Notes under the pieces: model-generated | Database searches by the model: none | Told to the model about the DNA's origin: nothing | What the model saw: only the letters and a program-made list of their open reading frames with translations | NCBI GenBank assembly: GCA_017431035.1 | Contig: JAFRLW010000031.1 | Span: forward strand, 1 to 44,169 | Reading direction: 5' to 3' | DNA from: Clostridia bacterium | Lineage (GTDB): Bacteria > Bacillota > Clostridia > Oscillospirales > Acutalibacteraceae | Length of the DNA: 44,169 bases | Made by a program: the position numbers and the translations under genes | Part shown: positions 16,662-41,936 of the stretch, piece after piece | Position numbering within the stretch: position 1 is the stretch's first letter | How the letters are laid out: the number at the start of each line of letters is the position of its first letter

Positions 16662-16737
16662 CCGGGTGTGGCGCAGCTGGTAGCGCGCTTGACTGGGGGT
16701 CAAGAGGCCGCAAGTTCAAGTCTTGTCACTCGGACCA
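16662..16737 (+). tRNA. tRNA-Pro (anticodon GGG), intact att-site copy
   Basis: 76 nt with encoded CCA. Acceptor CCGGGTG/CACTCGG, anticodon stem CTTGA/TCAAG with loop CTGGGGG (anticodon GGG), T-arm around AAGTTCAAGTCTT. Its last 45 bases, 16693-16737, from the first base of the anticodon loop to the CCA end, are repeated exactly at 43931-43975. Confidence 0.95.
16693..16737 (+). repeat. attL-side copy of the 45-bp direct repeat
   Basis: Identical to 43931-43975 and in the same orientation. Flanking bases differ on both sides (A versus G before, TCA versus AAT after). Confidence 0.85.
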
Positions 16738-16739: not shown

Positions 16740-16778
16740 AAAAAGGCTTTCCGTTTTATGCGGAAAGCCTTTTATTAT
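16740..16778 (+). terminator. tRNA-Pro terminator, first copy of a 39-bp repeat
   Basis: AAAAAGGCTTTCCG-hairpin-CGGAAAGCCTTTT directly after the tRNA. All 39 bases, including loop and tail, recur at 34119-34157. Confidence 0.85.
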
Positions 16779-16932: not shown

Positions 16933-18114
16933 TTATAGTATTTTAATCAGCCTTTTTGCTGCTTCTACTGTATCGTGGGGGTCTCCAAATGAAGATAATC
17001 TGAAATACTTTTCACCGCATTTTCCAAATCCTGCGCCGGGCGTTCCGACAATTTGCGCCTTATTTAACAGATAATCAAAAAACTCCCAACTATTCATATT
17101 ATCAGGACACCTAAGCCACAGATACGGCGAGTTTTTACCACCTGTATACCAGGTGTTTGTCTTATCAAGAGCGTTGGTTAAAACTTTTGCATTTTCCTTG
17201 TAAACCTGTAGGTTTGCTTTTATTTGTTCTTGTCCTTTCCTAGTAAAAACAGCCATTGCACCTTTTTGAAGTATATATGATACTCCGTTTGTTTTTGACA
17301 ATCTGTTTCTTGTCCACATCTCGTTTATTGACATTTTTTCTCTGATTATATTTTTCGGAACAACCGTATAACCAAGTCTTGTTCCGGTAAAGCCTGCTGT
17401 TTTTGAAAGCGAACATATTTCAATGGCGCAAGTCTTAGCACCTTCTATTTCAAATATACTGCGTGGTAAATGAGGGCTATCAATAAAGACTTCATAAGCG
17501 GCGTCAAAGATAATTATAGAACCGTTTTGGTTAGCAAAATCAACCCATTTTTTCAAGTTTTCAAAATCAAACACGACTCCTGTCGGATTATTTGGAGAGC
17601 AGATATAAATTATATCTGCCTTTGTATTCTTTTCGGGAGTTGGCATAAAAAGATTTTCTTCACTTGAATTCATTCTTATTATTCTTCTGCCGGCTATAAC
17701 ATTTGTTTCCACATATGACGGGTATGCAGGCTCCATAACAAGCGCGCTATTTGAAATATCAAACAAATCGATTATATCTGCAAGTTCGTCACAGGCACCC
17801 GTTGAAATGAAAACTTCGTCCGGGGCAATTTTTATTCCTCTTTCTGCGTAATGGAGCGCTATCTTTTCTCTAAGAGCATAGTCACCGCACTCATACATAT
17901 ATCCGTGAAACGTTTCTTTTTTTGATTGATCATCCACAGCGTTATGTAGTGCTTCTATAACAACTTCAGGAAGCGGAAGCGTTACATCCCCCACTCCAAG
18001 ACGTAGTAAATGAGCGTTTGGATTATTTTTAAGATAATCTTTGCTTTTTTGTAAGATAGTATCAAAGAGATATGAGTCTTTGAGATTTTGATAATTGGTA
18101 TTTGGTTTTAACAT
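16933..18114 (-). CDS. dapL: LL-diaminopimelate aminotransferase
   Basis: 393 residues, PLP-dependent. Transfers the amino group of glutamate to tetrahydrodipicolinate to give LL-DAP for lysine and peptidoglycan. Signature segments: LRLGVGDVTLPLP, ICSPNNPTGVVF, FDAAYEVFI, and SLSKTAGFTGTRLGY with the PLP lysine. The GVGDVT/AGFTG pattern separates DapL from generic AATs. Last gene of the leftward nitrogen operon; its start overlaps the dapF stop. It uses glutamate, in keeping with the locus. Confidence 0.94.
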   Translation of the reverse strand: MLKPNTNYQNLKDSYLFDTILQKSKDYLKNNPNAHLLRLGVGDVTLPLPEVVIEALHNAVDDQSKKETFHGYMYECGDYALREKIALHYAERGIKIAPDEVFISTGACDELADIIDLFDISNSALVMEPAYPSYVETNVIAGRRIIRMNSSEENLFMPTPEKNTKADIIYICSPNNPTGVVFDFENLKKWVDFANQNGSIIIFDAAYEVFIDSPHLPRSIFEIEGAKTCAIEICSLSKTAGFTGTRLGYTVVPKNIIREKMSINEMWTRNRLSKTNGVSYILQKGAMAVFTRKGQEQIKANLQVYKENAKVLTNALDKTNTWYTGGKNSPYLWLRCPDNMNSWEFFDYLLNKAQIVGTPGAGFGKCGEKYFRLSSFGDPHDTVEAAKRLIKIL

Positions 18115-18899
18115 ACTATATCCCCTTCATACACAGTTTCGGCGGGTCCGGTCATTGTAATTTTATAATCTTTATGTACGGTTATTTCAAGCGTTCCGCC
18201 GTCTAGTATTACGGTAATAGGATTATCAAACCCGCACAAACCTTTTCTTACTGCTGCGGAAGCGGCAGCACACGCCCCGGTACCGCATGCCAGCGTTACA
18301 CCGCTGCCCCTCTCCCAAACACGCATTCTTATTGTGTTTTTACTTATTATTTCAGCAAATTCGACATTTACTCCGCCGGGGAAAATCTTGTTATGCTCAA
18401 TTTGCGGTCCTATGGTAGAAACATCTGCTTTTTTCACATCTTCTACAAAGGTAACGGCGTGTGGATTACCCATAGATATAGCCAAGCATAAAACTTCACC
18501 ATTTTTAAGCGGAACGATGATATCATCTAAAACCTTTGCATATCCCATATCCACAGAAACGGACTTCACCTTACCTTCTGCGAGGTGCAAATCAAGTGAT
18601 TTTATGCCGGAAAGCGTTTCTATCTTCAAGCCGGTTTTATTAGTATATCCTTTTTCGTAAACATATTTTCCGACACATCTTATTCCGTTTCCGCACATCA
18701 TTGCCTCACTGCCATCGGCATTGAATATTCGCATTTTAAAGTCAGCCACTTTAGAAGATGATATGAAAATCATACCGTCTGAGCCTGCGCCGAAATGCCT
18801 ATCTGACAGGTGAGTGCAAAGCTCTATAATATTTTCAGGAACATCTCCGAAAACATACAAATAGTCATTACCAAGCCCTTGCATCTTTGTAAAATGCAT
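18108..18899 (-). CDS. dapF: Diaminopimelate epimerase
   Basis: 263 residues. Converts LL-DAP to meso-DAP with two catalytic cysteines, one in MCGNGIRC and one in ACGTGACA. N-terminus MHFTKMQGLGNDY is typical. ATG 18899 follows GAGGTGA inside the pyrG 3' end; pyrG stops at 18902. Follows DapL biochemically: dapL makes its substrate and lies next in the operon. Confidence 0.96.
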   Translation of the reverse strand: MHFTKMQGLGNDYLYVFGDVPENIIELCTHLSDRHFGAGSDGMIFISSSKVADFKMRIFNADGSEAMMCGNGIRCVGKYVYEKGYTNKTGLKIETLSGIKSLDLHLAEGKVKSVSVDMGYAKVLDDIIVPLKNGEVLCLAISMGNPHAVTFVEDVKKADVSTIGPQIEHNKIFPGGVNVEFAEIISKNTIRMRVWERGSGVTLACGTGACAAASAAVRKGLCGFDNPITVILDGGTLEITVHKDYKITMTGPAETVYEGDIVC

Positions 18900-18901
18900 A
18901 A

Positions 18902-20521
<1,620 letters not shown>

Positions 20522-22048
20522 TTATTCCCATTCCACCGTTGCCGGAGGTTTTGATGTAATATCGTAAACGACCCTCGTTATTCCTGTTACTTCATTTGTT
20601 ATACGGCGACTTGCCTTTTCGAGAATTTCAAAAGGAATTCTTGTCCAATCGGCTGTCATAAAATCATCCGTATCAACCGAGCGAAGCGCAACAGTATATC
20701 CATATGCTCTGCTATCCCCTACAACGCCGACGCTTTTTGTATCAAGTATTACTGCAAAATATTGACTTGGGGTTAGTTTTGCTTTCTCTATTTCTGCTCT
20801 GAATATCTCATCGGCATCTTTTAATAATTCCAGTTTTTCTTTTGTTATTTCTCCTATTACCCTGACGGCGAGCCCCGGTCCCGGAAATGGTTGTCGCCAA
20901 ACAAGTTCGGGCGGTATGCCTAACCTTTCTCCAACCTCACGAACCTCGTCCTTAAAAAGTAAACGTAGTGGTTCAACTATACCGTCAAAAGCGATTACAG
21001 ACGGTATGCCGCCAACATTGTGATGACTTTTTATAACGGCGCTGTCTCCCTTTCCGCTTTCCACAACGTCGGGATAAATAGTCCCTTGTGCGAGATAGTC
21101 CATTTTACCTAATTTTTTTGATACTTTTTCAAAAGTATTTATAAACTCTTTGCCGATTATTCTTCGTTTGCTCTCCGGTTCGGTAACTCCTTTAAGTTTG
21201 TTCAAAAACTCCTCTTGTGCATTTATTCTCATAATATTTATTCCGATTTTTTCACCGAGGGTTTTTTCAACATAATCGCCCTCGTTTTTACGCAACATAC
21301 CGTGATCTACAAAAACACAAGTCAGATTATTTCCTATTGCCCTATGTAAAAGAACTGCGGTGACAGAAGAGTCAACTCCACCGGAAAGCGCAAGCAATAC
21401 CTTTTTACCTTTAAGTTCATTTTTATATTTTTGAATAGATGTATTTATAAAATCAGACATTAACCAGTCAGCCTTACAACCGCAAATGCCGAAAATAAAG
21501 TTTTTAAGTATTTGTTTGCCGTACTCTGTATGAGTAACCTCAGGATGAAATTGAACACCGTATAAGTTTTTTTCTTTATTATAGACCGCGGCATTTTCAC
21601 ATTTTTTTGTATGGGCTATACACTTAAAGCCTTTAGGTAAAACGCTTACACTATCGGTATGGCTCATCCAACAGTCGCTAACAAGAGGCATATTTTCAAA
21701 TAAAATATTCTTTTCACAATAAAGGGGAGTTTTACCGTATTCACTACCGCATTTGGCGGGTGTAATATCTCCGCCTGCAAGATAGTTTAGCAGCTGATGT
21801 CCATAACAAATACCGAGAATAGGTATACCGATATCAATTATTTCTTTGTCAAAATGCGGTGAGTCGCTTTTATATACACTGTTTGGCCCACCGGTAAAAA
21901 TAATTCCTTTATATCCTTTTTCGGTTATTTCTTTGACAGTTATGCTTTTGTAAGATACAATTTCCGCATAAACATTTTCACTTCTCACTCTTCGTGCAAT
22001 CAACTGATTGTATTGCCCGCCAAAATCCAAAACAAGTATTTTATCCAT
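20522..22048 (-). CDS. guaA: GMP synthase (glutamine-hydrolysing)
   Basis: 508 residues. Converts XMP to GMP. Class I amidotransferase domain (Cys in GICYGHQ, His in VQFHPEV), ATP pyrophosphatase with P-loop LSGGVDSSV, and dimerisation domain ending [17 protein letters not shown] precedes the ATG; 11 bp after purB. guaB is not in the window, so the locus gathers the amide-using step rather than the whole GMP pathway. Confidence 0.98.
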
Positions 22049-22059
22049 ATTTGCCCTCT

Positions 22060-23472
22060 TTACAACTCAATGGTATCGTGAGATTTTTCACCGTTAATCA
22101 GTTTTCTTACTTTATCAATATAGTTTATAACCTGCTCTTCGCTTCTTCCGATATAAAGCATCGGGTTTAACAGATTAGTCAACTCATTTTTACTTAAATC
22201 AAGTTCTTTTGTTTTGCTGAGTTTTTCAATGAGATTGCATTTGCCGCCGATTTTCATCTCTGCGGTGGTTTCCATTGAGCAGGTGCGAATTATTTCATGT
22301 ATTTTTTGTCTGTTACCCCCTCGTTTTACTGCCTCCATCATTATATTTTCCGTTGCAATAAAAGGCAGATATTCCATTACCGCACTTTCTATAACTTTTT
22401 CATTGACAACAAGCCCGGCTGTTACATTATCGGCAAGTCTCAAAATAGAATCCGCACAGAGAAAACTTTCAGGCATAGATATTCTTCTGTTAGCAGAATC
22501 ATCCAGTGAACGCTCAAGCCACTGAAGCGCCGCAGTATACGGTGCGTTTGAAGACTCTGATATAAGATACCTTGATAGTGAACATATACGCTCACAACGA
22601 ATGGGATTTCGTTTGTAAGCCATTGCAGAGGACCCTATCTGAGTATTTTCAAACGGTTCTTCCAACTGCCTATCGTGTTGTAAAAGCCTTATATCATTTG
22701 CCATTTTATATGTACTTTGCGCTATAGACGAAAGGCAGGAAAGAATCCTGCTGTCAAGTTTGCGCGGATATGTTTGTCCGCAAACATCAAACAATGTATC
22801 AAACCCGAAATCAAAAGCAATTTGCCGGTTCATTTCGTCAATTTTATCGGAATCTCCGCCAAAAAGTTCTAAAAAACTTGCCTCGGTGCCTGTTGTTCCC
22901 CTACAGCCGAGAAACTTTATACTCTCTATTGTAAAATCGAGTTCAGATAAATCGGAAGCAAAATTATCTATCCACAAACACGCTCTTTTACCTATTGTTG
23001 TGAGCTGCGCCGGTTGATAATGTGTATATGAAAGAGCCGGAACACTCTTATACTTTTCGGCAAAATTGCACAGATTGTCTAAAACGCCCAAAAGCTCCGC
23101 GCAAATAAGGCGCAGAGCATCTCTGTATATTATTAAATCGGAATTATCGGTAACATAACAACTTGTAGCACCAAGATGTATTATTCCGGCGGCAGAAGGT
23201 GCCGCCTTGCCATATGCATAGATATGCGCCATCACATCATGGCGTGTTTCTTTTTCTCGCTTTTCAACAACAGAATAATCAATATCGTTTATATGTTGTT
23301 CAAGGTCGGCTACCTGCTTCGAGTTTATCGGTAGTCCGAGCCTGCTTTCCGCCCTTGCAAGAGACGTCCATAGTTTACGCCAAGTGGTATAGCGGGTATT
23401 TGCGGAAAACAATTCTTTCATTTTTTTACTTGCATACCTTGATGAAAATGGTGATTCATAATATTCAGTCAT
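22060..23472 (-). CDS. purB: Adenylosuccinate lyase
   Basis: 470 residues. Cleaves adenylosuccinate and SAICAR, releasing fumarate. Fumarase/aspartase fold: [11 protein letters not shown], then the signature [16 protein letters not shown]-terminus [18 protein letters not shown] matches clostridial PurB. ATG 23472 follows AGGGGAG; an upstream in-frame ATG at 23517 overlaps purA. Follows purA, the preceding enzyme. Confidence 0.97.
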
Positions 23473-23482
23473 ATTTACTCCC

Positions 23483-24757
23483 CTATCTGATAATAATACT
23501 GTCTCGCTCGGCACCAACCGAAATATATTTTATTCTTGTTCCAATTGATTTTTCGATATATTCAACATAATCTCTTGCTTTTTGCGGCAATTTATCCCAT
23601 TTTTTGATTTTAGAAATATCACACTGCCAACCGTCAAGATATTCAATAATCGGTTTCGCACTTTCAAGCTTTGTCGGGAAAAGAAATCTGTCGGTTTTTT
23701 TGCCTTCTGAGATATAACCGGTACAAACGGGTATTTTTTTCATATAACTTAAAACATCAAGCTTTGTAAGCGCTATTTCAGTGGCGTTTTGCATTTTTAC
23801 TCCGTATTTTGTCGCAACAATATCGATAGGGCCTACCCTTCTCGGCCTGCCGGTTTTAGCGCCGAATTCCGCACCTGCTGTCCTGAGTTTTTCTGCTTCT
23901 TCGCCGAACATTTCACACACGAACGGACCCTCGCCCACACATGTTGAATATGCTTTAACAACACCGATTACACTGTCTATCCTCAAAAACGGTACTCCGG
24001 CGCCTATAGGTGCATACGCCGAAAGTGTATTAGATGAAGTAGTGTATGGATATATACCGAAATCAATATCACGCAAAGTACCGAGTTGCGCTTCAAATAA
24101 AATGTTTTTACCGTCCTTAACAGCTTTACTCAAAAACTCCCCCGTGTCACATATAAATGGTTTTATTTTATAGACATAGGTTCTATACCAAGTCTCAATA
24201 TCACCTAATGAGCAGGAATTATCATTATAAACGTTTTCGAGGATAAGTTTTTTCCATTTTGTAAGGTCTTTAATGTGCTCAATTGATTTTTCATCGTCAA
24301 GCAATTCACCTGCGAGAACGGTTTTCTTTTGAAACTTATCGGAATAAAACGGAGCAATTCCTTGCTTGGTTGAACCGTATTTTTTATCTTTAAGCCTGTC
24401 TTCTTCCAAAATATCCTGCTTTATGTGCCATGGCATAAGCAGTGATGCACGCTCGCTTATTTTAAGGTTTTCGGGCGTTATTTTTATTCCCTTTTCCTTA
24501 ACGTTTTCAATCTCTTTTATAAGATTTTCGGGATCAAGCGCAACACCGTTGCCGAGAATATTTACAACATTATCTCTAAATATTCCCGATGGCAAAAGGT
24601 GTAAAGCAAATTTCCCTTTTTCGTTGATTACAGTATGTCCGGCATTTCCGCCTCCTTGATACCTTACTACAACATCATATTTTTCGGTGAGAAGATCAAC
24701 CATTCGGCCTTTGCCTTCATCACCCCAGTTAACACCGACTATCACACAATTGCTCAT
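23483..24757 (-). CDS. purA: Adenylosuccinate synthetase
   Basis: 424 residues. Joins aspartate to IMP with GTP. Motifs GVNWGDEGKGRMVDLL, GGGNAGHTV and the GARRVG-region equivalent TGRPRRVGPID. It spends aspartate, the nitrogen carrier whose alternate fate, asparagine, is set by asnB directly upstream. 11 bp after asnB. Confidence 0.98.
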   Translation of the reverse strand: MSNCVIVGVNWGDEGKGRMVDLLTEKYDVVVRYQGGGNAGHTVINEKGKFALHLLPSGIFRDNVVNILGNGVALDPENLIKEIENVKEKGIKITPENLKISERASLLMPWHIKQDILEEDRLKDKKYGSTKQGIAPFYSDKFQKKTVLAGELLDDEKSIEHIKDLTKWKKLILENVYNDNSCSLGDIETWYRTYVYKIKPFICDTGEFLSKAVKDGKNILFEAQLGTLRDIDFGIYPYTTSSNTLSAYAPIGAGVPFLRIDSVIGVVKAYSTCVGEGPFVCEMFGEEAEKLRTAGAEFGAKTGRPRRVGPIDIVATKYGVKMQNATEIALTKLDVLSYMKKIPVCTGYISEGKKTDRFLFPTKLESAKPIIEYLDGWQCDISKIKKWDKLPQKARDYVEYIEKSIGTRIKYISVGAERDSIIIR

Positions 24758-24768
24758 AAAGTTCTCCC

Positions 24769-26352
24769 TTACTTTCCGCTATCTCCATAGTTTGCAAGAA
24801 CACGTGCCGACGGATCATTCACATCACAACCACTCCAGTTTTTATTCGGCATCCAGAAATCAACCACCATTTCCGATTGACCGGGATAGTACTTTTCAAA
24901 TATCTCTCTATATAAAAGTGATTCTTTTGTAAAAGGTGTAGCGTGTTTGTATTTTTTCCTTTTGTTTTCAAACTCTTCATCGGTATAAACGCTTTCGGCG
25001 TATTCTTTGAGATAATCAACCATTGAATGACCAACGGCGTCTGAAAATGCCGCCTTTTCACGCCATAAAATACTATCGGGCAAATAGTTTAAGCCTTCAA
25101 AAGCGTGACGCAAAAGGTATTTACCTTTGCCGTATTTATTCATTTTTATTTCAGGATCGATATTCATAACATACTTTGCAAAATCAAGGTCGCCAAACGG
25201 CACACGAGCTTCCAAAGAGTTTATGGAAATACAGCGATCAGCTCTGAGGACATCATACATATGTAGTTCTCTTATCCTTTTTTCAGACTCTTTTTGAAAC
25301 TCTTTTGCACTTGGAGCAAAATCGGTATATTTATACCCAAACAGTTCATCTGATATTTCACCTGTGAGTAGTACTCGGATATCTGTATTCTCGTGAATTG
25401 CTTTGCAGACAAGGTACATACCCATACTCGCACGAATAGTGGTAATATCATAAGTGCCAAGCAAATGAATTACATCATCAAGTGAAGATATAACCTCATC
25501 GGGTGTCATATAAACTTCGGTATGTTCAGCACCTATAAAATCAGCAACCTGGCGGGCGTATTTAAGGTCGATAGCGTCCTCGCTCATACCTATCGCGAAG
25601 GTCTTTATCGGCTTTTCGCTTTCCCTTGCGGCAATCGCACAAACAAGAGATGAATCAAGACCGCCCGAAAGCAGAAAGCCCACTTTCGCATCGGCTACAA
25701 GCCGCTTTTTCACGCCTGTGACAAGTTTTTCTCTGATGTTTTTGCATGCAGTTTCAATATCATCGCTGCAAACACTACTCGCTTTAGAAATGTTGTTATA
25801 ACAGATAAACTTACCGTCTTTATAATAATGACCCGGGGGAAACGGCATTATCTTTTCGCAAATACCAATAAGGTTTTTCGGCTCGCTTGCAAAAACTATA
25901 GTGCCGATTTTGTCATATCCGAAATACAGTGGTCTAATGCCAATTGGATCGCGAGCGGCAACCCAGGAATTAGTTTCGCCGTCATATATGATACAGGCGA
26001 ACTCTGCATCAAGCATTGCGAACATATCGGTTCCGTATTCCAAATAGAGCGGCAAAAGAATCTCACAGTCGCTGTCACTTTTGAATATGTATCCTTTTTC
26101 GATGAGTTTACGCTTTTGCTCGGCAAAGCCATATAACTCTCCATTACAAACGGCTACGCAACCGTTCATATAGAACGGTTGCATTCCTTCTTCATGCAGT
26201 CCCATAATGGAAAGACGGTGAAAACCTATTGTTCCGCCTTTAACATCTATTATTCTGCTGTCGTCGGGTCCGCGAGACTTAGTCTCGGCGAACCCTTTTT
26301 TTAATGCGGTCTCATCCTGAACTTTACCGCAATAACCTATCACTGAACACAT
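24769..26352 (-). CDS. asnB: Asparagine synthase (glutamine-hydrolysing)
   Basis: 527 residues. N-terminal class II amidotransferase with Cys2 (MCSVIGYCGK) and HRLSIMGL; C-terminal synthetase with the pyrophosphatase loop LLSGGLDSSLV. Length is close to E. coli AsnB (554). RBS AAAGGTGA before the ATG; 15 bp after glnN, clearly cotranscribed, with no T-box in the gap. Uses glutamine made by glnN. Confidence 0.96.
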   Translation of the reverse strand: MCSVIGYCGKVQDETALKKGFAETKSRGPDDSRIIDVKGGTIGFHRLSIMGLHEEGMQPFYMNGCVAVCNGELYGFAEQKRKLIEKGYIFKSDSDCEILLPLYLEYGTDMFAMLDAEFACIIYDGETNSWVAARDPIGIRPLYFGYDKIGTIVFASEPKNLIGICEKIMPFPPGHYYKDGKFICYNNISKASSVCSDDIETACKNIREKLVTGVKKRLVADAKVGFLLSGGLDSSLVCAIAARESEKPIKTFAIGMSEDAIDLKYARQVADFIGAEHTEVYMTPDEVISSLDDVIHLLGTYDITTIRASMGMYLVCKAIHENTDIRVLLTGEISDELFGYKYTDFAPSAKEFQKESEKRIRELHMYDVLRADRCISINSLEARVPFGDLDFAKYVMNIDPEIKMNKYGKGKYLLRHAFEGLNYLPDSILWREKAAFSDAVGHSMVDYLKEYAESVYTDEEFENKRKKYKHATPFTKESLLYREIFEKYYPGQSEMVVDFWMPNKNWSGCDVNDPSARVLANYGDSGK

Positions 26353-26367
26353 AAAATCACCTTTATA

Positions 26368-28464
26368 TTATTTCACACTAAAGAGAATATCCGCATATGA
26401 AGGATACGGCCAATAAGATTTTGCGGTAAGTGTTTCCGCTGTGTCTGCCGCAAGTCTTAACTCACACATTTTAGGTAATACACAATCTCTGATAATTTCA
26501 GATTCTTCTATGATACCTTTTGCTTCACCGAGTGTGACAATAGTGTCGTTCAATTCATCGGCATATATTGCAATTTTATCAGTAATATCTGAAAGTTTTG
26601 AGATAAGATCGGTTTCGTATTTGCAGGTTATGTCTGCAATCACTGCCTTTTTTGCCGCCGTATTTTTTGCAATATACGCAGTAAATGCTTCTATTGCCGG
26701 TGCAATTTGTGTCTTTGCCATATCAACCATTGTATTAGCTTCAATAGTTACCGACTTGCAATAGTTTTCAAGCATTATCTCGCAACGAGATTGCAATTCA
26801 GATACCGAAAAGACCTTATGAGAAGTAAGCATATCAACATTTTTCTTATCAAGCAGATGCGGCATACAGTCAGCAGTTGTGCGATAATTCAGAAGCCCTC
26901 TTGTCTTGGTTGCTTCTTTTATCCATGCATCATCATAGCCGTTTCCGTTAAATATAATCCGCTTATGGTCTTTAATCGTTTTCTTTATCATATTGTGTAA
27001 ATCGGTTTCAAAATCGGTTGATTTTTCTAATCTATCGGCATAAATTTTGAGACTTTCGGCTACTGCTGAGTTGAGCATAATGTTTGCACAAGCAATACTG
27101 TTTGAAGAACCGAGCATTCTAAACTCAAACTTATTGCCCGTAAATGCAAACGGAGATGTTCTGTTTCTGTCTGTGGTATCACGGTTAAATTTAGGAAGAA
27201 CATCAACGCCCAGCTTCATCTGTTTTTTCTCTATTCCCTCATAAGGTGTATCGGTTTCTATTGCTTTTAATACACCGTCAAGTTCATCACCTAAGAATAT
27301 AGATACAACCGCCGGAGGCGCTTCATTGGCGCCAAGTCTATGGTCATTACCTGCAGTTGCAACAGATATACGAAGCAAATCCTGATAATCATCAACCGCT
27401 TTAATAACCGCACAAAGAAACAGTAAAAATTGTGCATTTTCATATGGCGTATCTCCGGGCGACAACAGGTTTTGTCCTTCGTCTGTTGATATAGACCAGT
27501 TGTTGTGTTTTCCGCTGCCGTTAACCCCTGCAAAAGGTTTTTCGTGAAGCAAACATACAAGCCCGTGCTTTGCGGCAACCTTCTGCATAATTTCCATAGT
27601 CAGCTGGTTGTGGTCTGTGGCAATATTGGTAGTGGTATAAATAGGTGCTAATTCATGTTGAGCGGGTGCTACCTCGTTATGTTCAGTTTTTGCAAGAATG
27701 CCAAGTTTCCACAGCTCTTCATTTAACTCTTCCATATATGCTGCAACACGCGGTTTGATAACACCGAAATAGTGGTCATCCATTTCCTGACCCTTAGGCG
27801 GCTTGGCGCCAAAAAGAGTTCTGCCTGTGAAACGAAGATCCGGGCGGGCATCATACATCTCTTTTGTTATAAGGAAATATTCCTGTTCGGGGCCTACCGA
27901 AGAATGAACATATTTTGCCTTTTTGTTACCAAACAAACGTAATACTCTGAGCGCCTGACGGTTTAATGCTTCCATTGAACGCAAAAGAGGAGTCTTTTTA
28001 TCAAGTGCCTGACCGCTGTATGAACAAAAAGCGGTAGGAATACACAAAGTTTTTCCTTTAATAAACGCGTAAGATGTTGGATCCCAAGCAGTATAACCTC
28101 TTGCCTCAAAAGTAGCTCTGAGTCCGCCTGACGGGAAAGAGGAAGCATCCGGTTCGCCCTTTATGAGTTCTTTACCGGAAAACTCCATAATTACTCCACC
28201 ATCAAGTGATGGTGTGATAAAACTATCGTGCTTTTCAGCAGTAATGCCTGTCAGAGGCTGAAACCAGTGTGTAAAATGTGTGGCGCCGTTTTCTACTGCC
28301 CAGTCTTTCATTGCATCAGCGACCTCATTAGCTACACCGCTGTCAAGCGTTGCGCCCTCATCGATGGTCTTTTTGAGGGAAGCATAAACCTTGGCAGGTA
28401 GTTTAGCCTTCATTACGCGGTCATCAAACACCATACTTCCAAAATAATCCGGTACTTTCTTCAT
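26368..28464 (-). CDS. glnN: Glutamine synthetase type III
   Basis: 698 residues, the length of GSIII, found in Bacteroidetes, cyanobacteria and Clostridia. Assimilates ammonia into glutamate. Signatures: [18 protein letters not shown] near the N-terminus, [37 protein letters not shown] and [13 protein letters not shown]. First gene of the eight-gene leftward operon. Its leader carries two ANTAR-type hairpins, each tied to a terminator, so expression of the whole operon should depend on antitermination. RBS AAGGAAGAG. Confidence 0.97.
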
Positions 28465-28488
28465 AAATATCTCTTCCTTTCTTCAAAT

Positions 28489-28616
28489 AAAGGCAATGGC
28501 GCCTTTTATGTTTAAAACACAAAAGACGCCATTGCCTTTAAAAATATATAATTGTCGCAAAATAAAAGAAGAGCGTCTTCGAGCCTATAGACTCAAAGAC
28601 GCCATTGCCTTCAACA
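28489..28616 (-). promoter_or_regulatory. glnN leader: two tandem ANTAR hairpin/terminator modules
   Basis: Read leftward. Module 1: hairpin GAAGGC-AATGGC-GTCTTT (28612-28595) overlaps the 5' arm of a 13-bp terminator stem (28602-28573) with T-rich tail TCTTCTTTTATTTT. Module 2: AAAGGC-AATGGC-GTCTTT (28539-28522) overlaps a >20-bp hairpin (28539-28489) ending CCTTTATTT. In each, the six-base loop has A at 1 and G at 4, and forming it blocks the terminator. Together with the ANTAR gene at 33464, this is an antitermination leader. Confidence 0.85.
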
Positions 28617-28622
28617 AAGCAG

Positions 28623-28651
28623 ATTATACACTATACTTTTTTACTTGTCAA
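28623..28651 (-). promoter_or_regulatory. Consensus promoter of the leftward nitrogen operon
   Basis: TTGACA (28651-28646), 17-bp spacer, TATAAT (28628-28623), a perfect consensus. Transcription starts about 28616, just before ANTAR hairpin 1. So strong a promoter suits control by termination rather than initiation. Confidence 0.85.
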
Positions 28652-28739
28652 CAATTTTTTTAAAAAATTTTTTCAATGTTCAAATCAAAAATGATAATTT
28701 GCAAACCCATAGTTTTTGAGTTATATTCGATATTTGTTA

Positions 28740-28768
28740 TTGACAATACATTGCATTAGATGTAAAAT
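28740..28768 (+). promoter_or_regulatory. Promoter of the glutamate synthase operon
   Basis: TTGACA (28740-28745), 17-bp spacer, TAAAAT (28763-28768); start expected near 28775. Confidence 0.85.
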
Positions 28769-28775
28769 GCATTTG

Positions 28776-28836
28776 ATGAGCAATGGCGTTCATTTTTACA
28801 GGATAATTCTGTAAGAATGGACGCCTCTTTATATTT
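28776..28836 (+). promoter_or_regulatory. Glutamate synthase leader: one ANTAR hairpin/terminator module
   Basis: Hairpin ATGAGC-AATGGC-GTTCAT (28776-28793) with the same loop as the glnN leader. It overlaps the 5' arm of a terminator stem: GGCGT at 28785 pairs with ACGCC at 28821-28825, with inner CATT/AATG and TTACAG/CTGTAA, followed by TCTTTATATTT. The ANTAR hairpin starts at the first transcribed bases. Confidence 0.82.
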
Positions 28837-28854
28837 ATAAAGGAAGGGATAATA

Positions 28855-29949
28855 GTGAAAAAAGAAGGACAGATAAGAATACCCTCCGGTTGTGCTATTG
28901 CAGCGGTGATTTCAAGAAGCGGAAAGCTTATGTCCGGTGAAAGAATAATCAAGGCAATGGAGCCTATGCACGACCGTTCAAACGGACTCGGTGGCGGCTT
29001 TGCAGCTTATGGCATTTATCCTGATTACAAAGATTTTTATGCGTTTCATATATTTTTTGATTGCCGTGATACAAGGAAAAAGACAGAGGCATTTTTGAAG
29101 GAACATTTTGAAATTGTAAAAGGTGAAATTATACCTACAAGAAAAATACCGGAAATTACCGATGAGCCGATTATATGGCGATATTTTATAACACCATTAA
29201 AATCAGTACTTGCAGAGTTGCAACTTGATGAAAAAGAGTTTGTTGCGAGAACGGTAGTAAAAATAAACTCTGAAATAAGCGGTGCTTATGTCTTTTCAAG
29301 CGGAAAAAACATGGGAACATTCAAAGCAGTTGGTTTTCCTGAAGATGTCGGAAGGTTTTATAAACTTGATGAGTATGAAGCATACAGTTGGACATCCCAC
29401 GGCAGATATCCGACAAACACCCCCGGTTGGTGGGGCGGTGCTCATCCGTTTACTTTGCTCGACTACTCTGTAGTACACAACGGAGAAATATCATCCTACG
29501 ATGCTAACCGCAGATTTATTGAAATGTTCGGTTATAAATGCAATTTACAAACCGATACGGAGGTTATAACATATATACTCGATTACCTTGTAAGACGGCA
29601 GGGACTAACTTTAGGCGAAGCCGCAAGTGTTATAGCCGCACCTTTTTGGAGCACAATTCAAAACAAAACCGATATATATGATAAAGAAAAACATAAATAT
29701 TTACGAACCATATTTCCAAGTCTGCTTATAACCGGTCCGTTTTCCATTGTTTTAGGATTTAACGGCGGTCTTATGGCGTTAAATGACCGATTAAAGTTAA
29801 GATCAATGGTTGTGGGTGAAAAAGATGACAAGGTATTTATCGCAAGTGAAGAGGCGGCAATTAGGAAGATGGAACCTTATGCTGAAAACCTATGGTCGCC
29901 TGCCGGTGGTGAGCCGGTAATCATCAGAGTGGAAGAAGGAAAATACTAA
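28855..29949 (+). CDS. Glutamate synthase amidotransferase subunit (GltB1 type)
   Basis: 364 residues, class II glutamine amidotransferase module of a split glutamate synthase. SGCAIAAVISRSG holds the presumed nucleophile Cys13, which would need N-terminal processing to be the terminal residue; then NGLGGGFAAYGIYP, SHGRYPTNTP and VVHNGEISSYDANR. Starts at GTG 28855 after AAGGAAGGG. Releases ammonia for the synthase subunit next door; its stop and the next ATG overlap. Archaeal and clostridial genomes carry such split enzymes. Confidence 0.9.
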   Translation: MKKEGQIRIPSGCAIAAVISRSGKLMSGERIIKAMEPMHDRSNGLGGGFAAYGIYPDYKDFYAFHIFFDCRDTRKKTEAFLKEHFEIVKGEIIPTRKIPEITDEPIIWRYFITPLKSVLAELQLDEKEFVARTVVKINSEISGAYVFSSGKNMGTFKAVGFPEDVGRFYKLDEYEAYSWTSHGRYPTNTPGWWGGAHPFTLLDYSVVHNGEISSYDANRRFIEMFGYKCNLQTDTEVITYILDYLVRRQGLTLGEAASVIAAPFWSTIQNKTDIYDKEKHKYLRTIFPSLLITGPFSIVLGFNGGLMALNDRLKLRSMVVGEKDDKVFIASEEAAIRKMEPYAENLWSPAGGEPVIIRVEEGKY

Positions 29950-31454
29950 TGGATGTTAATTATATATATCCTGAATTTGAAATAATAAGAAATATGGACA
30001 GATGTATCTCCTGTAGGTTATGCGAAAAACAATGTGCTAACGAAGCTCATTTGTTTGACGCCGAACGCAAAATTATGATAAGTGACGAAACAAAGTGTGT
30101 TAACTGTCAACGATGTGTATCGTTTTGTCCTACAAGGGCGCTTAAAATAGTAAAAAGCGACTGCACATTAAAGGAAAATGCGAACTGGCAAAACGATACC
30201 ATAAGGGAGATTTATAAACAAGCAAACAGCGGCGGTGTTCTGCTTTCCTCTATGGGTACTCCAAAACCACTTCCGGTTTACTGGGATAGAATACTACTTA
30301 ACGCTTCACAGGTTACAAACCCGCCTATCGATCCGCTAAGAGAACCAATGGAGACCAAAGTGTTTTTAGGCAAAAAGCCGGACTCGATAAACAGAGACAA
30401 AACCGGAAAAATCATCTGCACTCTTCCCCCTCAAATCGAACTATCAATGCCGCTTATGTTTTCCGCTATGAGTTATGGCTCGATAAGTTATAATGCGCAC
30501 GAGTCTTTGGCACGGGCGGCGAGCAAACTCGGTATTTTATACAACACCGGCGAAGGCGGTTTGCACGAGGATTTCTACAAATACGGCGCCAACACAATAG
30601 TTCAAGTGGCTTCTGGGCGCTTTGGTGTTCATGAAGACTATTTGAGTTCAGGCGCTGCAATAGAAATAAAAATGGGACAAGGGGCAAAACCGGGTATAGG
30701 CGGCCACCTGCCCGGTGCAAAAATTGTTGGTGATGTATCAAAAACACGAATGATACCCGAAGGGTCTGACGCTATTTCTCCCGCGCCTCATCATGATATT
30801 TATTCTATAGAAGACTTAAGACAACTGGTTTTTTCATTAAAGGAAGCAACACAGTATAAAAAACCGGTAATTGTCAAGGTCGCCGCTGTACATAACATCG
30901 CCGCTATTGCGAGCGGCATTGCCCGTAGCGGTGCTGATATCATTGCTATAGACGGATATCGCGGAGGAACAGGTGCCGCACCCACAAGGATACGGGATAA
31001 TGTGGGAATACCTATTGAACTTGCTCTTGCCGCCGTTGACTCTAGGCTTCGTGAAGAAGGAATAAGAAATAATGTTTCTTTGGTTGTTGGCGGTTCAATT
31101 CGCAGTGCGGCAGATGTTGTAAAAGCAATCGCTTTAGGTGCTGATTCCTGTTATATTGCAACTGCGGCGCTTTTGGCACTTGGTTGTCATCTTTGCAGAA
31201 CATGTCAGAGCGGCAAATGCAACTGGGGTATTGCAACGCAACGCGCTGATCTTGTTAAACGGCTTAACCCCGATATAGGCGCCAAACGCCTTTTTAATTT
31301 AATGACAGCGTGGCAACACGAAATAAAAGAAATTATGGGCGGAATGGGCATTAACTCAATCGAAGCACTTCGCGGCAACAGACTTATGCTAAGAGGTGTT
31401 GGATTGACCTCAAAGGAACTTGAAATTTTGGGTATTGCCCACGCAGGAGAATAA
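29949..31454 (+). CDS. Glutamate synthase core subunit with ferredoxin domain (GltB2 type)
   Basis: 501 residues. Residues 15-60 hold two 4Fe-4S motifs (CISCRLCEKQC and CVNCQRCVSFCP). The rest is the FMN-binding glutamate synthase barrel: NTGEGGLHEDF, GQGAKPGIGGHLPGAKI, GYRGGTGAAPTRIRDNVG, VGGSIRSAADVV, and the 3Fe-4S-type cysteines CHLCRTCQSGKC. Reduces 2-oxoglutarate plus ammonia to glutamate. No NAD(P)H-binding GltD gene is adjacent, so electrons may come from ferredoxin or a distant partner. Confidence 0.93.
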   Translation: MDVNYIYPEFEIIRNMDRCISCRLCEKQCANEAHLFDAERKIMISDETKCVNCQRCVSFCPTRALKIVKSDCTLKENANWQNDTIREIYKQANSGGVLLSSMGTPKPLPVYWDRILLNASQVTNPPIDPLREPMETKVFLGKKPDSINRDKTGKIICTLPPQIELSMPLMFSAMSYGSISYNAHESLARAASKLGILYNTGEGGLHEDFYKYGANTIVQVASGRFGVHEDYLSSGAAIEIKMGQGAKPGIGGHLPGAKIVGDVSKTRMIPEGSDAISPAPHHDIYSIEDLRQLVFSLKEATQYKKPVIVKVAAVHNIAAIASGIARSGADIIAIDGYRGGTGAAPTRIRDNVGIPIELALAAVDSRLREEGIRNNVSLVVGGSIRSAADVVKAIALGADSCYIATAALLALGCHLCRTCQSGKCNWGIATQRADLVKRLNPDIGAKRLFNLMTAWQHEIKEIMGGMGINSIEALRGNRLMLRGVGLTSKELEILGIAHAGE

Positions 31455-31488
31455 AATAATAGAAATATAACAGAAAGTGTAGTATACT

Positions 31489-32208
31489 ATGATTATTAAT
31501 GCTGAAAATATAAAATATGATGATTTAAATACTGCAATTAGAAACGCAAAAGGAAATATTGAATTATTAAACGTTTGCGGACAACGGTTTATAGCGAGCG
31601 GTATGCAAGACAAAAGAATTATAATAAACGGTATTCCCGGTAACGCTCTCGGTGCATACTTAAATGGCGGAAAAATAAATGTTAAAGGTAACGCCCAGGA
31701 TGCCGTAGGCGATACAATGAACGCCGGCGAAATAATCATTCACGGAAATATCGGCGATGCTGCAGGATATGCTATGCGTGGGGGAAGTATTTTTGTAAAA
31801 GGCAATGCAGGATATCGCACCGGCATACATATGAAAGCTTACAAAGAAAAGGTGCCGTTGATTGTAATCGGCGGAACAGCCGGAAGCTTTTTAGGCGAAT
31901 ACCAAGCCGGTGGTGTTATCGTTGTGTTCGGACTAAACAAAAAATATAAAAAAATTGTCAGCAATTTTCCCGGCACCGGTATGCACGGAGGAAAAATGAT
32001 ACTGCGTTCTAATTGCAAAGATATTATATTTCCAAAACAGGTATCCGTTAATCCTGCCACAACAGAAGAACTTGAAGAAATCAAAAAGATTGCAGAAAAG
32101 TATTGTGATTTTTTTGATGAAGATATCAATATTATCATGAATTCCCCATTTACTATTATTACGCCAAATAGCAATAATCCATATAAACAACTATATGTTA
32201 CCAACTGA
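31489..32208 (+). CDS. Glutamate synthase beta-helix subunit (GltB3/GXGXG)
   Basis: 239 residues, the C-terminal beta-helix of GOGAT as a separate protein, with repeated G-x2-G-x-G turns (GIPGNALGAYLNGG, GNAQDAVGDTMNAG, GNIGDAAGYAMRGG, GTAGSFLGEYQAGG). Structural role between the amidotransferase and FMN domains. Weak upstream RBS (ACAGAAAG). Stop lies 10 bp before the next gene. Confidence 0.9.
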   Translation: MIINAENIKYDDLNTAIRNAKGNIELLNVCGQRFIASGMQDKRIIINGIPGNALGAYLNGGKINVKGNAQDAVGDTMNAGEIIIHGNIGDAAGYAMRGGSIFVKGNAGYRTGIHMKAYKEKVPLIVIGGTAGSFLGEYQAGGVIVVFGLNKKYKKIVSNFPGTGMHGGKMILRSNCKDIIFPKQVSVNPATTEELEEIKKIAEKYCDFFDEDINIIMNSPFTIITPNSNNPYKQLYVTN

Positions 32209-32218
32209 GGAGGACATT

Positions 32219-33430
32219 ATGAACTATTCAAAAGAAGAGGTTATGCAATACATTGTCGAAGAGGATGTAAAATTCATTCGTCTTGCTTTTTGCGATGTGT
32301 TCGGAAATCAAAAGAATATTTCCATTATGCCTGATGAACTTCCGCGTGCATTCAAATACGGAATAGCTTTTGATGCGTCGGCAATAGACGGATTTGCCGA
32401 TGAAACTCATTCCGATCTTTTCCTTTTCCCGGACCCCGAAACTCTTACGTGGCTTCCCTGGCGCCCCGAGCACGGAAAAGTTGTTAGAATGTTTTGCACT
32501 ATTAAATATCCCGACGGCAGGCAGTATGAGTGCGATACAAGAAATCTGCTGAAAAAGGCCGTTGAGGACGCAAAAGCAGCGGGATATACATTCTATTTCG
32601 GTGCGGAGCAGGAATTCTATTTGTTTAATCTCGATGAAAAGAATATGCCGACAAATATTCCGTATGACAACGCCGGATATATGGATATGGCGCCTGAAGA
32701 TAAGGGTGAAAATGTTAGGCGCGAGATTTGTCTTACTCTTGAACAGATGGGAATTCATCCCGAAAGTTCGCATCACGAAGAAGGCCCCGGGCAAAACGAA
32801 ATAGATTTTAGATATACCGAAGCTCTTGCTGCGGCAGATAATGTTATGACATTCCAAACGGTTGTAAAAACAGTTGCCCATCGCAACGGACTGTGCGCAG
32901 ATTTTTCTGCAAAACCTTTGGATAAAAAACCCGGAAACGGCTTTCATATAAATGTTTCCGTAAAACCCGATAATTCTCTTGATAATCTTCGCAATATGAT
33001 AGCGGGCGTGCTTAACAAGGCAAAGCAGATGACTGTTTTTCTAAATCCCACGCCTAATTCATACAAACGTCTTGGACAGATGAAAGCACCGCGATATGTA
33101 TCCTGGTCGGCTGAAAACCGTTCTCAGCTTATTCGCATTCCGGCAGCATCTGAGGAATATCGCCGTGCAGAACTTCGATCACCCGATCCAACCGCTAACC
33201 CGTATATAGCTTTTGCCATTATGATTTGGGCAGGTCTTTACGGAATAGAAAACCGAGTTGAACTGCCGGCACCGGTCGATAAAAACCTGTATGTAGCAGA
33301 TAAAGAAACCCTGTCTTTCCTTCAGGAATTACCTTCAAGTATTGAAGAAGCAAGGGAAACTGCGGCGGCTGATAATTTTATAAAAGAACACATTCCATCA
33401 AAAATATTAGATATTTACTGCAACAAATAA
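32219..33430 (+). CDS. glnA: Glutamine synthetase type I
   Basis: 403 residues, shorter than typical GSI (440-470). Beta-grasp N-terminus (FIRLAFCDVFGNQKN), then FGAEQEFYLF, GPGQNEIDFRY, NGFHINVSV, PNSYKRL, and RSPDPTANPYIAFA. ATG 32219 follows GAGGAGG. Second GS of the locus, placed with glutamate synthase to form a GS-GOGAT cycle. No adenylylation Tyr region could be confirmed, and the C-terminus is shortened. Confidence 0.95.
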   Translation: MNYSKEEVMQYIVEEDVKFIRLAFCDVFGNQKNISIMPDELPRAFKYGIAFDASAIDGFADETHSDLFLFPDPETLTWLPWRPEHGKVVRMFCTIKYPDGRQYECDTRNLLKKAVEDAKAAGYTFYFGAEQEFYLFNLDEKNMPTNIPYDNAGYMDMAPEDKGENVRREICLTLEQMGIHPESSHHEEGPGQNEIDFRYTEALAAADNVMTFQTVVKTVAHRNGLCADFSAKPLDKKPGNGFHINVSVKPDNSLDNLRNMIAGVLNKAKQMTVFLNPTPNSYKRLGQMKAPRYVSWSAENRSQLIRIPAASEEYRRAELRSPDPTANPYIAFAIMIWAGLYGIENRVELPAPVDKNLYVADKETLSFLQELPSSIEEARETAAADNFIKEHIPSKILDIYCNK

Positions 33431-33463
33431 TATTCATAGATCTTAAGGAGAGGAGGTCAGGGA

Positions 33464-34048
33464 ATGAACTTTTTAGAACGAGTATACAGTGTGTTATTAG
33501 TGTCTGCAAGCGAAAATTTGAACCGACATTTATTACAATCTTTCCCCGGCCATATTTTCTCTCCGATAAACACTGTGCGTAATATAAGCATTGCAAAGCG
33601 CGCTATGTTAGAGAAAAGTTTTGATTTTGTTATCATAAATTCTCCCCTGCCCGATGATACGGGCTTGCGTTTTGCAATAGATGTAGCAAACAATCATAAT
33701 TCTATTGTTCTTATCCTTATGGATTCAGAAAAATACGATGAAAGCTTTGATAAACTTGTAAAAAACGGCGTTTTCATATTGCAAAAGCCTACTACTATTT
33801 CTATAATCCGGATTGCATTCGACTGGATGATCAGCGCACGGGAAAGGATAAGACGGGCAGAAAAAAAGACCCTTTCAATAGAAGAAAAGATGGCAGAAAT
33901 CCGTCTTGTAAACCGTGCAAAATGGTTGCTTATAAGTGAACTGAAAATGACCGAACCCGATGCTCATAGATATATAGAAAAAAGCGCTATGGATAATTGT
34001 GTATCCCGAAAACATATCGCCGAGGAAATCATTAAAACATATGGGTAA
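33464..34048 (+). CDS. ANTAR-domain antitermination regulator with degenerate receiver
   Basis: 194 residues. Residues 8-120 are a CheY-like fold, but the acidic pocket is gone: VLLVSASEN replaces the usual VDDE, and Asn59 (FDFVIINSPLP) replaces the phospho-Asp; the lysine in LQKP remains. Residues about 135-192 are an ANTAR RNA-binding domain (VNRAKWLLISELKMTEPDAHRYI then KHIAEEII). Preceded by AGGAGAGGAGG. Last gene of the glutamate synthase operon. ANTAR proteins bind paired hairpins with A1/G4 hexaloops to block terminators; such loops occur in both leaders at 28489-28836. No histidine kinase nearby. Confidence 0.93.
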   Translation: MNFLERVYSVLLVSASENLNRHLLQSFPGHIFSPINTVRNISIAKRAMLEKSFDFVIINSPLPDDTGLRFAIDVANNHNSIVLILMDSEKYDESFDKLVKNGVFILQKPTTISIIRIAFDWMISARERIRRAEKKTLSIEEKMAEIRLVNRAKWLLISELKMTEPDAHRYIEKSAMDNCVSRKHIAEEIIKTYG

Positions 34049-34118: not shown

Positions 34119-34157
34119 AAAAAGGCTTTCCGTTTTATGCGGAAAGCCTTTTATTAT
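34119..34157 (+). terminator. Terminator after the ANTAR gene, second copy of the 39-bp repeat
   Basis: Identical over all 39 bases to the tRNA-Pro terminator at 16740-16778, with unrelated flanks. It ends the glutamate synthase operon. Confidence 0.85.
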
Positions 34158-35607: not shown

Positions 35608-35621
35608 ATCTAACAAAATTT

Positions 35622-35652
35622 TTAGGACGGCGATTTTCGCCGTCTTTTTTTG
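35622..35652 (+). terminator. Terminator of the first recombinase gene
   Basis: GACGGCG-ATTTT-CGCCGTC followed by TTTTTTT. Confidence 0.85.
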
Positions 35653-35721
35653 CTCTAAATCCGCATAAATAAAGGTTTTTAAACTTTTTAAAAAATTTTT
35701 AAAATTTTTTTCAAAAATCGC

Positions 35722-35749
35722 TTGACATTATTTTTAAAAAAAATAAACT
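35722..35749 (+). promoter_or_regulatory. Promoter of the MazF-like toxin genes
   Basis: TTGACA (35722-35727), 16-bp spacer, TAAACT (35744-35749), following long A/T tracts. Confidence 0.6.
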
Positions 35750-35771
35750 ATATCAGTTAGCTTTTTAAAAT

Positions 35772-35814
35772 AGGTTATTTTTTCGCTTTTTTAGCGGGAG
35801 AATAGCCTTTTTTT
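35772..35814 (+). terminator. Attenuator before the first MazF-like gene
   Basis: AGGTTATT/AATAGCCT outer stem with inner CGC/GCG, then seven T. Lies between promoter and RBS, so it should limit toxin transcripts. Confidence 0.6.
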
Positions 35815-35848
35815 ATTTATTTTTTATATATACAAGGAGGTTTTCGTA

Positions 35849-36193: not shown

Positions 36194-36213
36194 CCCCTCG
36201 GTCATAGGTTAAA

Positions 36214-36240
36214 AGAAGGTCCTCCCCGGAGGACCTTCAT
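36214..36240 (+). terminator. Hairpin between the two MazF-like genes
   Basis: GAAGGTCCTCC-CCGG-AGGACCTTC with weak T content after, preceded by TGACC-CCTC-GGTCA. Could be a terminator or RNA-processing hairpin. Confidence 0.6.
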
Positions 36241-36273
36241 ATAAAAAAATATATTAAAAAAGGAGAAAAAAAT

Positions 36274-36609: not shown

Positions 36610-36627
36610 CAAATGCCTAAACCAACG

Positions 36628-37325: not shown

Positions 37326-37326
37326 A

Positions 37327-38112: not shown

Positions 38113-38149
38113 TTCTACCCTCATTTCAAATATAATTGTTAGTAATTAT

Positions 38150-41933: not shown

Positions 41934-41936
41934 AGG

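Follow-up and report, generated by a model that had tools for sequence, protein, structure and literature searches.

A Nitrogen and Nucleotide Biosynthesis Cluster in a tRNA-Pro Island of a Clostridia Bacterium, Probably under ANTAR Antitermination

Introduction

Targets of ANTAR-domain proteins have been described before glutamate and glutamine synthase genes (PMC3369931, PMC3369936), and C. thermocellum carries an ANTAR gene with a glutamate synthase cluster that has been compared to nitR (PMC4676874). The eut target is a dual hexaloop with a linker of 5–12 nt; at 14 nt induction is sharply lower (PMC3369931), and a 20-nt linker extension abolished antitermination in vitro (PMC8934654). Here we describe a 17-kb locus in a Clostridia bacterium (Acutalibacteraceae; GenBank assembly GCA_017431035.1), in which two divergent operons for making and spending glutamine, glutamate and aspartate are each headed by a hexaloop-terminator leader. 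The locus lies in a stretch of 44,169 nt (contig JAFRLW010000031.1, forward strand), called the window below, which is contig C41 of a 1.48-Mb draft genome.

Our reading, to which we give a probability of roughly 75%, is that this is a nitrogen-nucleotide cluster, horizontally inserted or relocated, that stands under ANTAR antitermination. The control appears to be a changed form of the ANTAR mechanism rather than a new kind of system. (G, C and L numbers are our labels for genomes, contigs and loci.)

Two Divergent Operons

The open reading frames (ORFs) of the window were named by Pfam and NCBIfam family matches. All 13 ORFs named by the original prediction are present with family identities that agree, and its extent of 17 kb is right. 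The ORF list and family matches give a leftward operon of eight genes, glnN-asnB-purA-purB-guaA-pyrG-dapF-dapL, and a rightward operon of five, namely a split glutamate synthase (three genes), glnA and an ANTAR regulator:

16933–18114, minus strand: dapL, LL-diaminopimelate aminotransferase (TIGR03542, 467 bits)
18108–18905, minus strand: dapF, diaminopimelate epimerase (family match); sole copy found in the genome
18902–20509, minus strand: pyrG, CTP synthase (family match); sole copy found in the genome
20522–22048, minus strand: guaA, glutamine-hydrolysing GMP synthase (family match)
22060–23472, minus strand: purB, adenylosuccinate lyase, with the ATG at 23472 preferred over a longer ORF
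23483–24757, minus strand: purA, adenylosuccinate synthetase (family match); sole copy found in the genome
24769–26352, minus strand: asnB, glutamine-hydrolysing asparagine synthase (family match)
26368–28464, minus strand: glnN, type III glutamine synthetase (GSIII_N, 7e-81)
28855–29949, plus strand: glutamate synthase amidotransferase subunit (GATase_2)
29949–31454, plus strand: ferredoxin and FMN glutamate synthase subunit (Fd+Glu_synthase)
31489–32208, plus strand: GXGXG glutamate synthase subunit (GXGXG)
32195–33430, plus strand: glnA, short type I glutamine synthetase, 411 aa (family match)
33464–34048, plus strand: pseudo-receiver and ANTAR regulator (ANTAR, 9e-15); sole ANTAR gene found in the genome

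The leftward spacing is tight, as originally claimed, and operon-like, with gaps of 10–15 bp or overlaps. As listed, the purB ORF extends to 23517 and overlaps purA; by eye, the ATG at 23472 is the better one, has a ribosome-binding site and is probably the start.

Genome-wide copy searches covered ANTAR, pyrG, purA, dapF, glnN and guaA. The first four were each found in one place, within the window. The suggested check for other copies therefore leaves pyrG and purA single, and guaA with a second homologue on C6 that comprises the C-terminal domain only (49% identical over 315 aa). A second glnN, 56% identical, lies on C9. It was considered as a resident copy under the same switch and rejected, there being no such hexaloop there.

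Hexaloops Fused to Terminators

The region between the operons holds two promoters and three hexaloop-terminator units:

28491–28541, minus strand: glnN leader unit 2, hexaloop AATGGC (loop 28533–28528), 3′ arm common to a terminator at 28537–28491
28542–28614, minus strand: glnN leader unit 1, hexaloop AATGGC (loop 28606–28601), 3′ arm common to a terminator-like hairpin at 28603–28572
28623–28651, minus strand: glnN promoter, TTGACA-17-TATAAT, 12/12 in the promoter scan
28740–28768, plus strand: glutamate synthase operon promoter, TTGACA-17-TAAAAT, 11/12 in the promoter scan
28774–28845, plus strand: glutamate synthase leader, single hexaloop (loop 28782–28787) and terminator at 28785–28825

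Where the original prediction spoke of one RNA switch there are thus three units, in two leaders and two sequence classes. The hexaloop (loop in brackets) is AAGGC[AATGGC]GTCTT in glnN unit 1, with a 3′ arm that opens the terminator-like hairpin, and AAAGGC[AATGGC]GTCTTT in unit 2, with a 3′ arm that opens a terminator of at least 20 pairs. That of the glutamate synthase leader is GAGC[AATGGC]GTTC and runs into a 19-pair terminator. All three units carry A at loop position 1 and G at position 4 (A1 and G4), and in both leaders the 3′ arm of a hexaloop is shared with an intrinsic terminator. The glnN transcript would start about 7 bases past its promoter. Both leaders fold far beyond shuffles (z -9.73 for glnN, -7.35 for glutamate synthase). 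Neither contains a short-linker dual hexaloop, and the genome encodes one ANTAR protein, at this same locus.

In relatives, units were picked by a pattern of A1, G4, the loop-adjacent bases and a stem of at least 4 pairs; a looser first scan, demanding only A1, G4, 4 pairs and two G-C pairs, found the same loops. Alignments took in 56 of 64 glutamate-synthase units and 55 of 88 glnN units, and models of the units, R1 and R2, were used for searches. The terminator, which was not selected for, covaries, with double changes in 7 of 12 pairs in the glutamate-synthase class and 10 of 15 in the glnN class. A2 is invariant in the alignments though the pattern did not demand it; A1 and G4 are invariant by selection. 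Across both classes the hexaloop stem (151 distinct 22-mers) has 186 double-change cells, compared with a mean of 88 and a maximum of 113 in 1000 shuffles, an excess due in part to selection. Two points here tell against ANTAR control: A1, G4 and the 4-pair stem were built into the pattern and so carry no independent weight, and stem covariation in the glutamate-synthase class taken by itself does not exceed shuffles. We also observe that the terminator apex in the glutamate-synthase alignment often carries CAGA...TCTG.

Glutamate-synthase leaders have exactly one unit by pattern in 63 of 65 cases; the remaining two (L057, L072) have none by pattern and one model match each. Loop A1 falls 13–16 nt past the -10 box in all 62 scored leaders of this class. 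The 89 glnN rows comprise 51 with two units, 32 with one, three with three and three with none, one of the last (L032) having no leader within its contig. A promoter of at least 9/12 precedes the first glnN unit in 72 of 85 cases, and in multi-unit glnN leaders the loop-to-loop distance is 49–180 nt (median 67). As aligned, these leaders differ from the classical dual hexaloop, because the eut linker measures 5–12 nt and longer linkers impair function, while the loops here are single or far apart.

An ordinary dual-hexaloop element could still be present if the glutamate-synthase leader hid a second, weak hexaloop. A possible second loop (at least 3 bp, within ~20 nt) is found in 22 of 64 leaders, more than in shuffles (mean 5.1, maximum 12), and its stem reaches 7–11 bp in L061, L029 and L043, where it coincides with the terminator's own tip. 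However, the other 42 leaders, that of the window included, have none, and the 22 candidates differ from each other in loop sequence and position. We therefore regard a concealed dual element as unlikely.

Recurrence in Other Clostridia

We compared gene neighbourhoods in 80 named loci, the best 80 of a longer GlnN protein-search list. All are Clostridia-type records, and many end at contig ends. In 54 of the 80 the gene for the glutamate synthase amidotransferase subunit points away from glnN, and in 33 this divergent layout is followed by an ANTAR gene within the locus; 25 of those 33 have at least one of purA, purB, guaA and pyrG downstream on the glnN strand. When pyrG is present it is nearly always part of this arrangement (35 of 38 loci), and the same downstream, same-strand position is occupied by guaA (21/23), purA (10/10), asnB (56/58), dapF (8/9) and dapL (7/8). 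In seven loci all three of purA, purB and guaA lie downstream of glnN. Between glnN and pyrG, no non-ORF gap exceeds 120 nt in 17 of 35 loci, and none exceeds 250 nt in 26. In G055, from another family of the same order, glnN-purA-purB-guaA-pyrG-dapF-dapL faces glutamate synthase-glnA-ANTAR, which is the window order minus asnB.

The original prediction took the breadth of the locus to be unusual; the gene-neighbourhood comparison indicates that it is not peculiar to this genome, the gene chain recurring in Clostridia. The locus is thus real and recurring, and it is probably regulated. An alternative placement, with pyrG directly after the ANTAR gene (glnA-ANTAR-pyrG), is seen in L212, L213, L225–L227 and L229.

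Units before Genes outside the glnN Leader

The R1 and R2 search covered 74 of the 80 named loci, and matches outside glnN leaders were counted. Units precede pyrG in L004 (Merdimmobilis hominis, E 3e-9), L076 (1e-7) and, weakly, L051 (0.0065), purA in L016 (E 7e-5), guaA in L026 (E 1e-4), and purC in L022, L034, L055, L056 and L073 (E 7e-9 to 2e-5). A carA leader has one in L063 (E 8e-6), and the same leader recurs in L053 (4e-4). Among genes of glutamate and glutamine metabolism, units stand before gdhA in ten loci (by eye), before gltB in L080 and gltD in L066 and L069 (E about 1e-3), and R1 units stand directly before glnA in four loci. In G054 a unit of the glutamate-synthase class precedes dapF-dapL (L334, G054:C20, 1501–1565). 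Cultured carriers of units include Merdimmobilis hominis An559, where pyrG has one of its own, and Mediterraneibacter agrestimuris DSM 111629, where one stands before purC. NCBIfam confirmed purC (five of the five given), carA (L063), gdhA (L056), gltD (L066) and gltB (L080). Matches with no clear nitrogen gene behind them occur in L015, in L022 at 8246 and in L062, where the 853-aa protein behind the match has no NCBIfam name.

A promoter of its own, scoring 11–12/12 and lying 7–12 nt ahead, accompanies the units before pyrG in L004 and L076, purC in L022, L034, L055 and L056, and carA in L063 and L053. These are the strongest support for placing nucleotide genes in the nitrogen regulon, because they are independent of operon continuity. 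The promoter scores only 7–8/12 for purA in L016, guaA in L026, purC in L073 and pyrG in L051, for which reason these units may be attenuators within a longer transcript, or are doubtful.

In the genome of the window itself, R2 returned the window leaders and then a next match at E 1.5, and R1 (E 0.001, strict filters only) gave a match in this window alone. A weak R2 match in the window (20 bits, E 0.04 in the window) at 12518–12575, before a solute-binding protein gene at 10999–12471, is probably due to chance.

Are the Nucleotide Genes Nitrogen Controlled?

The original prediction placed nucleotide genes under nitrogen control, and comparison lends this support: putative ANTAR-type attenuators head both operons, the chain recurs, and units stand before pyrG, purC, carA, purA, guaA and dapF-dapL elsewhere. 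Several observations weigh against it. A non-ORF gap of more than 120 nt separates glnN from pyrG in 18 of 35 other loci, and the leftward operon itself contains nine promoter-like sites. Of 21 ANTAR-bearing relatives, 14 yielded a unit and seven did not, and the models were built with units from 12 of those 14 genomes, whose matches are therefore expected; only the near absence from ANTAR-lacking relatives (1 of 38; 59 relatives in all) is informative. The exception is G001: no ANTAR gene was detected in it, yet two units precede what looks by eye like a gdhA start. The G001 units (L297, G001:C25) lie near a contig end, so contamination is possible.

The gaps and the internal sites, together with several relatives that carry nucleotide genes outside the glnN chain, would fit a situation in which only the glutamine and glutamate genes are nitrogen controlled, with asnB to dapL as hitchhikers read from constitutive or nucleotide-responsive internal promoters. 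However, a check of the sequence for internal promoters that would uncouple the leftward genes gave only the nine weak sites, all at 9/12, and the whole scan is at chance level (57 found versus 52.6 expected). The window genes are separated by 10–15 bp or overlap, and elsewhere hexaloop-terminators with their own promoters stand directly before pyrG, purC and carA, and promoterless ones before purA and guaA. On balance we judge hitchhiking to be quite improbable.

A second alternative is that the ANTAR gene lies near the leaders only by coincidence, and that these are simple terminators or attenuators answering to a different trans-acting factor. No Rfam family matched the leaders at gathering score, with only hairpin-like matches below threshold (the matches at gathering score in the window are three tRNAs), and this and the seven ANTAR-bearing relatives that gave no unit would agree with such a view. 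Against it, the A1 and G4 hexaloop is as described for ANTAR targets (PMC3369931, PMC8934654), the unit is nearly confined to ANTAR-bearing relatives, and the ANTAR gene sits in the same operon here and in the same divergent layout in 33 of the 80 named loci. We consider an incidental association very improbable.

Distribution of CTP Synthase and the ANTAR Gene

In a draft genome an undetected gene may simply have fallen into a gap of the assembly, and the following counts are to be read accordingly. In the same genus, pyrG was found in 6 of 36 genomes and not in 30; all six are ANTAR bearing (6/8 ANTAR-bearing versus 0/28 ANTAR-lacking). In other families the split is 11/13 versus 0/10. All 18 genomes with pyrG, our own included, also have the ANTAR gene, and among genomes at least 90% complete, own included, pyrG was found in 17 of 42. 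Of the 59 relatives, 42 yielded no pyrG, 25 of these being at least 90% complete, whereas all 14 control genomes have it. In G008, itself 93% complete, searches for pyrG, purA, dapF, the GMP synthase C domain and ANTAR all came back empty.

Asn at the Presumed Phospho-Acceptor Position of the Regulator

The receiver position that we take, from general receiver anatomy, to be the phospho-acceptor is Asn in 56 of 58 aligned ANTAR proteins and Asp in the other two. The window protein has Asn and so would lack the phosphorylatable Asp of EutV-like response regulators. Since the acceptor position is Asn, phosphorylation is unlikely as the signal, which probably does not come by way of a classical phosphoryl group. 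Our guess is that it arrives through a partner protein, perhaps GlnA. The window glnA encodes 411 aa, and 43 of 58 full-length ANTAR-linked ORFs, own included, fall at 400–412 aa. An alignment with type I glutamine synthetases of solved structure covers most of its product, which falls ~25 residues short of them at the C end.

The Locus Lies in a tRNA-Pro Island

The original prediction missed an island around the locus, which is delimited by the following features:

16662–16737, plus strand: tRNA-Pro(GGG), with the left attachment site in its 3′ part, 16693–16737
16693–43975, no strand: the island, 27.3 kb long and bounded by 45-bp direct repeats of the tRNA-Pro 3′ end
16740–16778, no strand: bidirectional terminator, 39 bp, left copy
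34119–34157, no strand: bidirectional terminator, 39 bp, right copy, an exact repeat of 16740–16778
42300–43454, plus strand: tyrosine integrase near the right attachment site (PF00589 8.5e-26, phrog_1 2e-52)
43931–43975, plus strand: right attachment site, 45-bp copy of the tRNA-Pro 3′ end

An exact copy of the last 45 bp of tRNA-Pro lies ~480 bp past the tyrosine integrase gene, and relatives without the insert exist. In G002 and G017, of the same genus, the right flank of the window follows the tRNA after 50–60 nt (76% over 147 nt and 82% over 121 nt, respectively) and the island is absent from this site; the right flank has no match in the other tRNA-Pro stretches taken. The tRNA repeats at the two ends, the integrase near one of them and the insert-free relatives together mark this as an island. 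On the left, the order YlxM-Ffh-RimM-TrmD-HPr-tRNA-Pro is found in nine of the ten same-genus tRNA-Pro regions taken, the tenth, G021, showing RimM-TrmD-HPr. Contamination or misassembly was considered and rejected, as each flank has its counterpart in the genus, the left one in G008 (Ffh 93% identical, gene order unchanged) and the right one in G002 and G017.

The locus could instead be native, the tRNA-Pro element having simply landed next to it or enclosed it. In 2-kb windows the G+C of the nitrogen part (0.376–0.432) equals that of the flanks, while the right island part is lower (0.32–0.36); the 39-bp repeats bracket the nitrogen part alone; and same-genus G012 has a related cluster elsewhere (glnN 91% over 329 aa). 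However, at this site G002 and G017 have none of the sequence that separates the tRNA repeats, and pyrG, purA, dapF and ANTAR were not found in G008, the nearest relative (Ffh 93%). We think a native locus rather unlikely and favor insertion or relocation. Because the 39-bp repeats bracket the nitrogen part, this segment may have entered the island separately, in a two-step insertion.

Ffh identity, apart from G008, is 79–84% within the genus and 56–67% in other families (G005, G025 and G030 gave no true Ffh match), and the window glnN is 82–86% identical to those of G039, G051 and G055 from other families. This is only a hint of transfer between families, because GlnN of this type is 77–85% identical in all 80 named loci.

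The tRNA-Pro site may be used by other elements in the genus (L276 and L277 in G012, L281 in G017, L274 in G008), as suggested by partial tRNA copies and contig breaks: G017 has another partial copy ~200 nt further on, G012 a second one, and the contigs of G008 and G012 end at tRNA-Pro. A tRNA-Leu island in G055, which among the stretches taken comes nearest to the window in gene order, was rejected, since no tRNA repeat beyond one 16-base stretch lies nearby, and in G034 the repeat test found none down to 12 bases.

The right half of the island (34630–43836) encodes a second tyrosine recombinase-like gene and a short type I restriction C-terminal piece, two MazF-like toxins, a T5orf172 gene (PDC-S57), a TIR protein (PDC-S66/ThsB-like) and a large ATPase-like protein of 740 aa that matches the candidate defence family PDC-S46.

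Discussion

Considered together, these observations are consistent with a model in which RNA polymerase would start a few bases ahead of the hexaloop hairpin and, unaided, would stop once the 3′ half of the loop is drawn into the terminator. When nitrogen is short, the ANTAR protein made from the end of the rightward operon would bind A1 and G4 of the hexaloop and keep its 3′ arm out of the terminator, so that both operons are read. Reading of the leftward operon would supply glutamine through GlnN together with enzymes that spend glutamine, aspartate or glutamate (AsnB, GuaA, PyrG, PurA and DapL). Here we infer both the direction of the nitrogen response and read-through as far as dapL.

A wider picture, which we offer tentatively and at slightly less than even odds, is that in gut and rumen Clostridia one ANTAR protein governs a regulon of ammonia assimilation plus those steps of nucleotide synthesis that consume glutamine or aspartate (PurC, PurA, GuaA, PyrG and CarA), by way of a single 5′-end hexaloop fused to a terminator, and that the whole package is mobile as an island, from which a lineage without CTP synthase can gain CTP, AMP, GMP and diaminopimelate (DAP) steps at once.

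Synthesis of CTP, AMP and GMP is usually described as being under nucleotide-level control. The comparative evidence would make some of these genes members of a nitrogen regulon in gut Clostridia, and among the open-licence titles listed none dealt with ANTAR control of CTP, AMP or GMP synthesis. The island suggests how a nucleotide-dependent lineage could regain several essential steps and their regulation in one event, and the single-hexaloop leaders offer a natural test of whether one hexaloop suffices, a question raised by the EutV-RNA structure paper.

Integrative genomic islands borne on tRNA genes have repeats of the tRNA 3′ end, an integrase near one end and defence-like cargo. The window island shares all of these features. 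Unlike them, it carries a pair of core-metabolism operons that include the only CTP synthase and adenylosuccinate synthetase detected in the genome.

The control resembles ANTAR antitermination by EutV, NasR and AmiR (Ramesh et al., 2012, PMC3369931) in its A1/G4 hexaloop, the 3′ arm shared with a terminator, the nitrogen genes and the presence of an ANTAR gene. In contrast to the two hairpins described there, the glutamate-synthase leader has one loop at the 5′ end, and in multi-unit glnN leaders the loops lie a median of 67 nt apart, each window unit with its own terminator-like hairpin. The targets listed in the part of that paper available to us are glutamate, glutamine and arginine synthase genes, and genes for CTP, AMP, GMP, Asn or DAP are not among them. 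Closest in gene content is NitR of Clostridium with the ANTAR-GOGAT cluster Clo1313_2030-2036, which likewise pairs a receiver-ANTAR protein with a split glutamate synthase and for which antitermination in response to ammonia status was proposed; in contrast to our locus, the available text makes no link to pyrG, guaA, purA, asnB or dap genes (PMC4676874). In the EutV-RNA structure, an ANTAR dimer engages a single hexaloop at any one time, and the available text leaves open the role of single-hexaloop targets (PMC8934654). Antitermination there needs both hexaloops, whereas one gene class here has single-hexaloop leaders as a rule.

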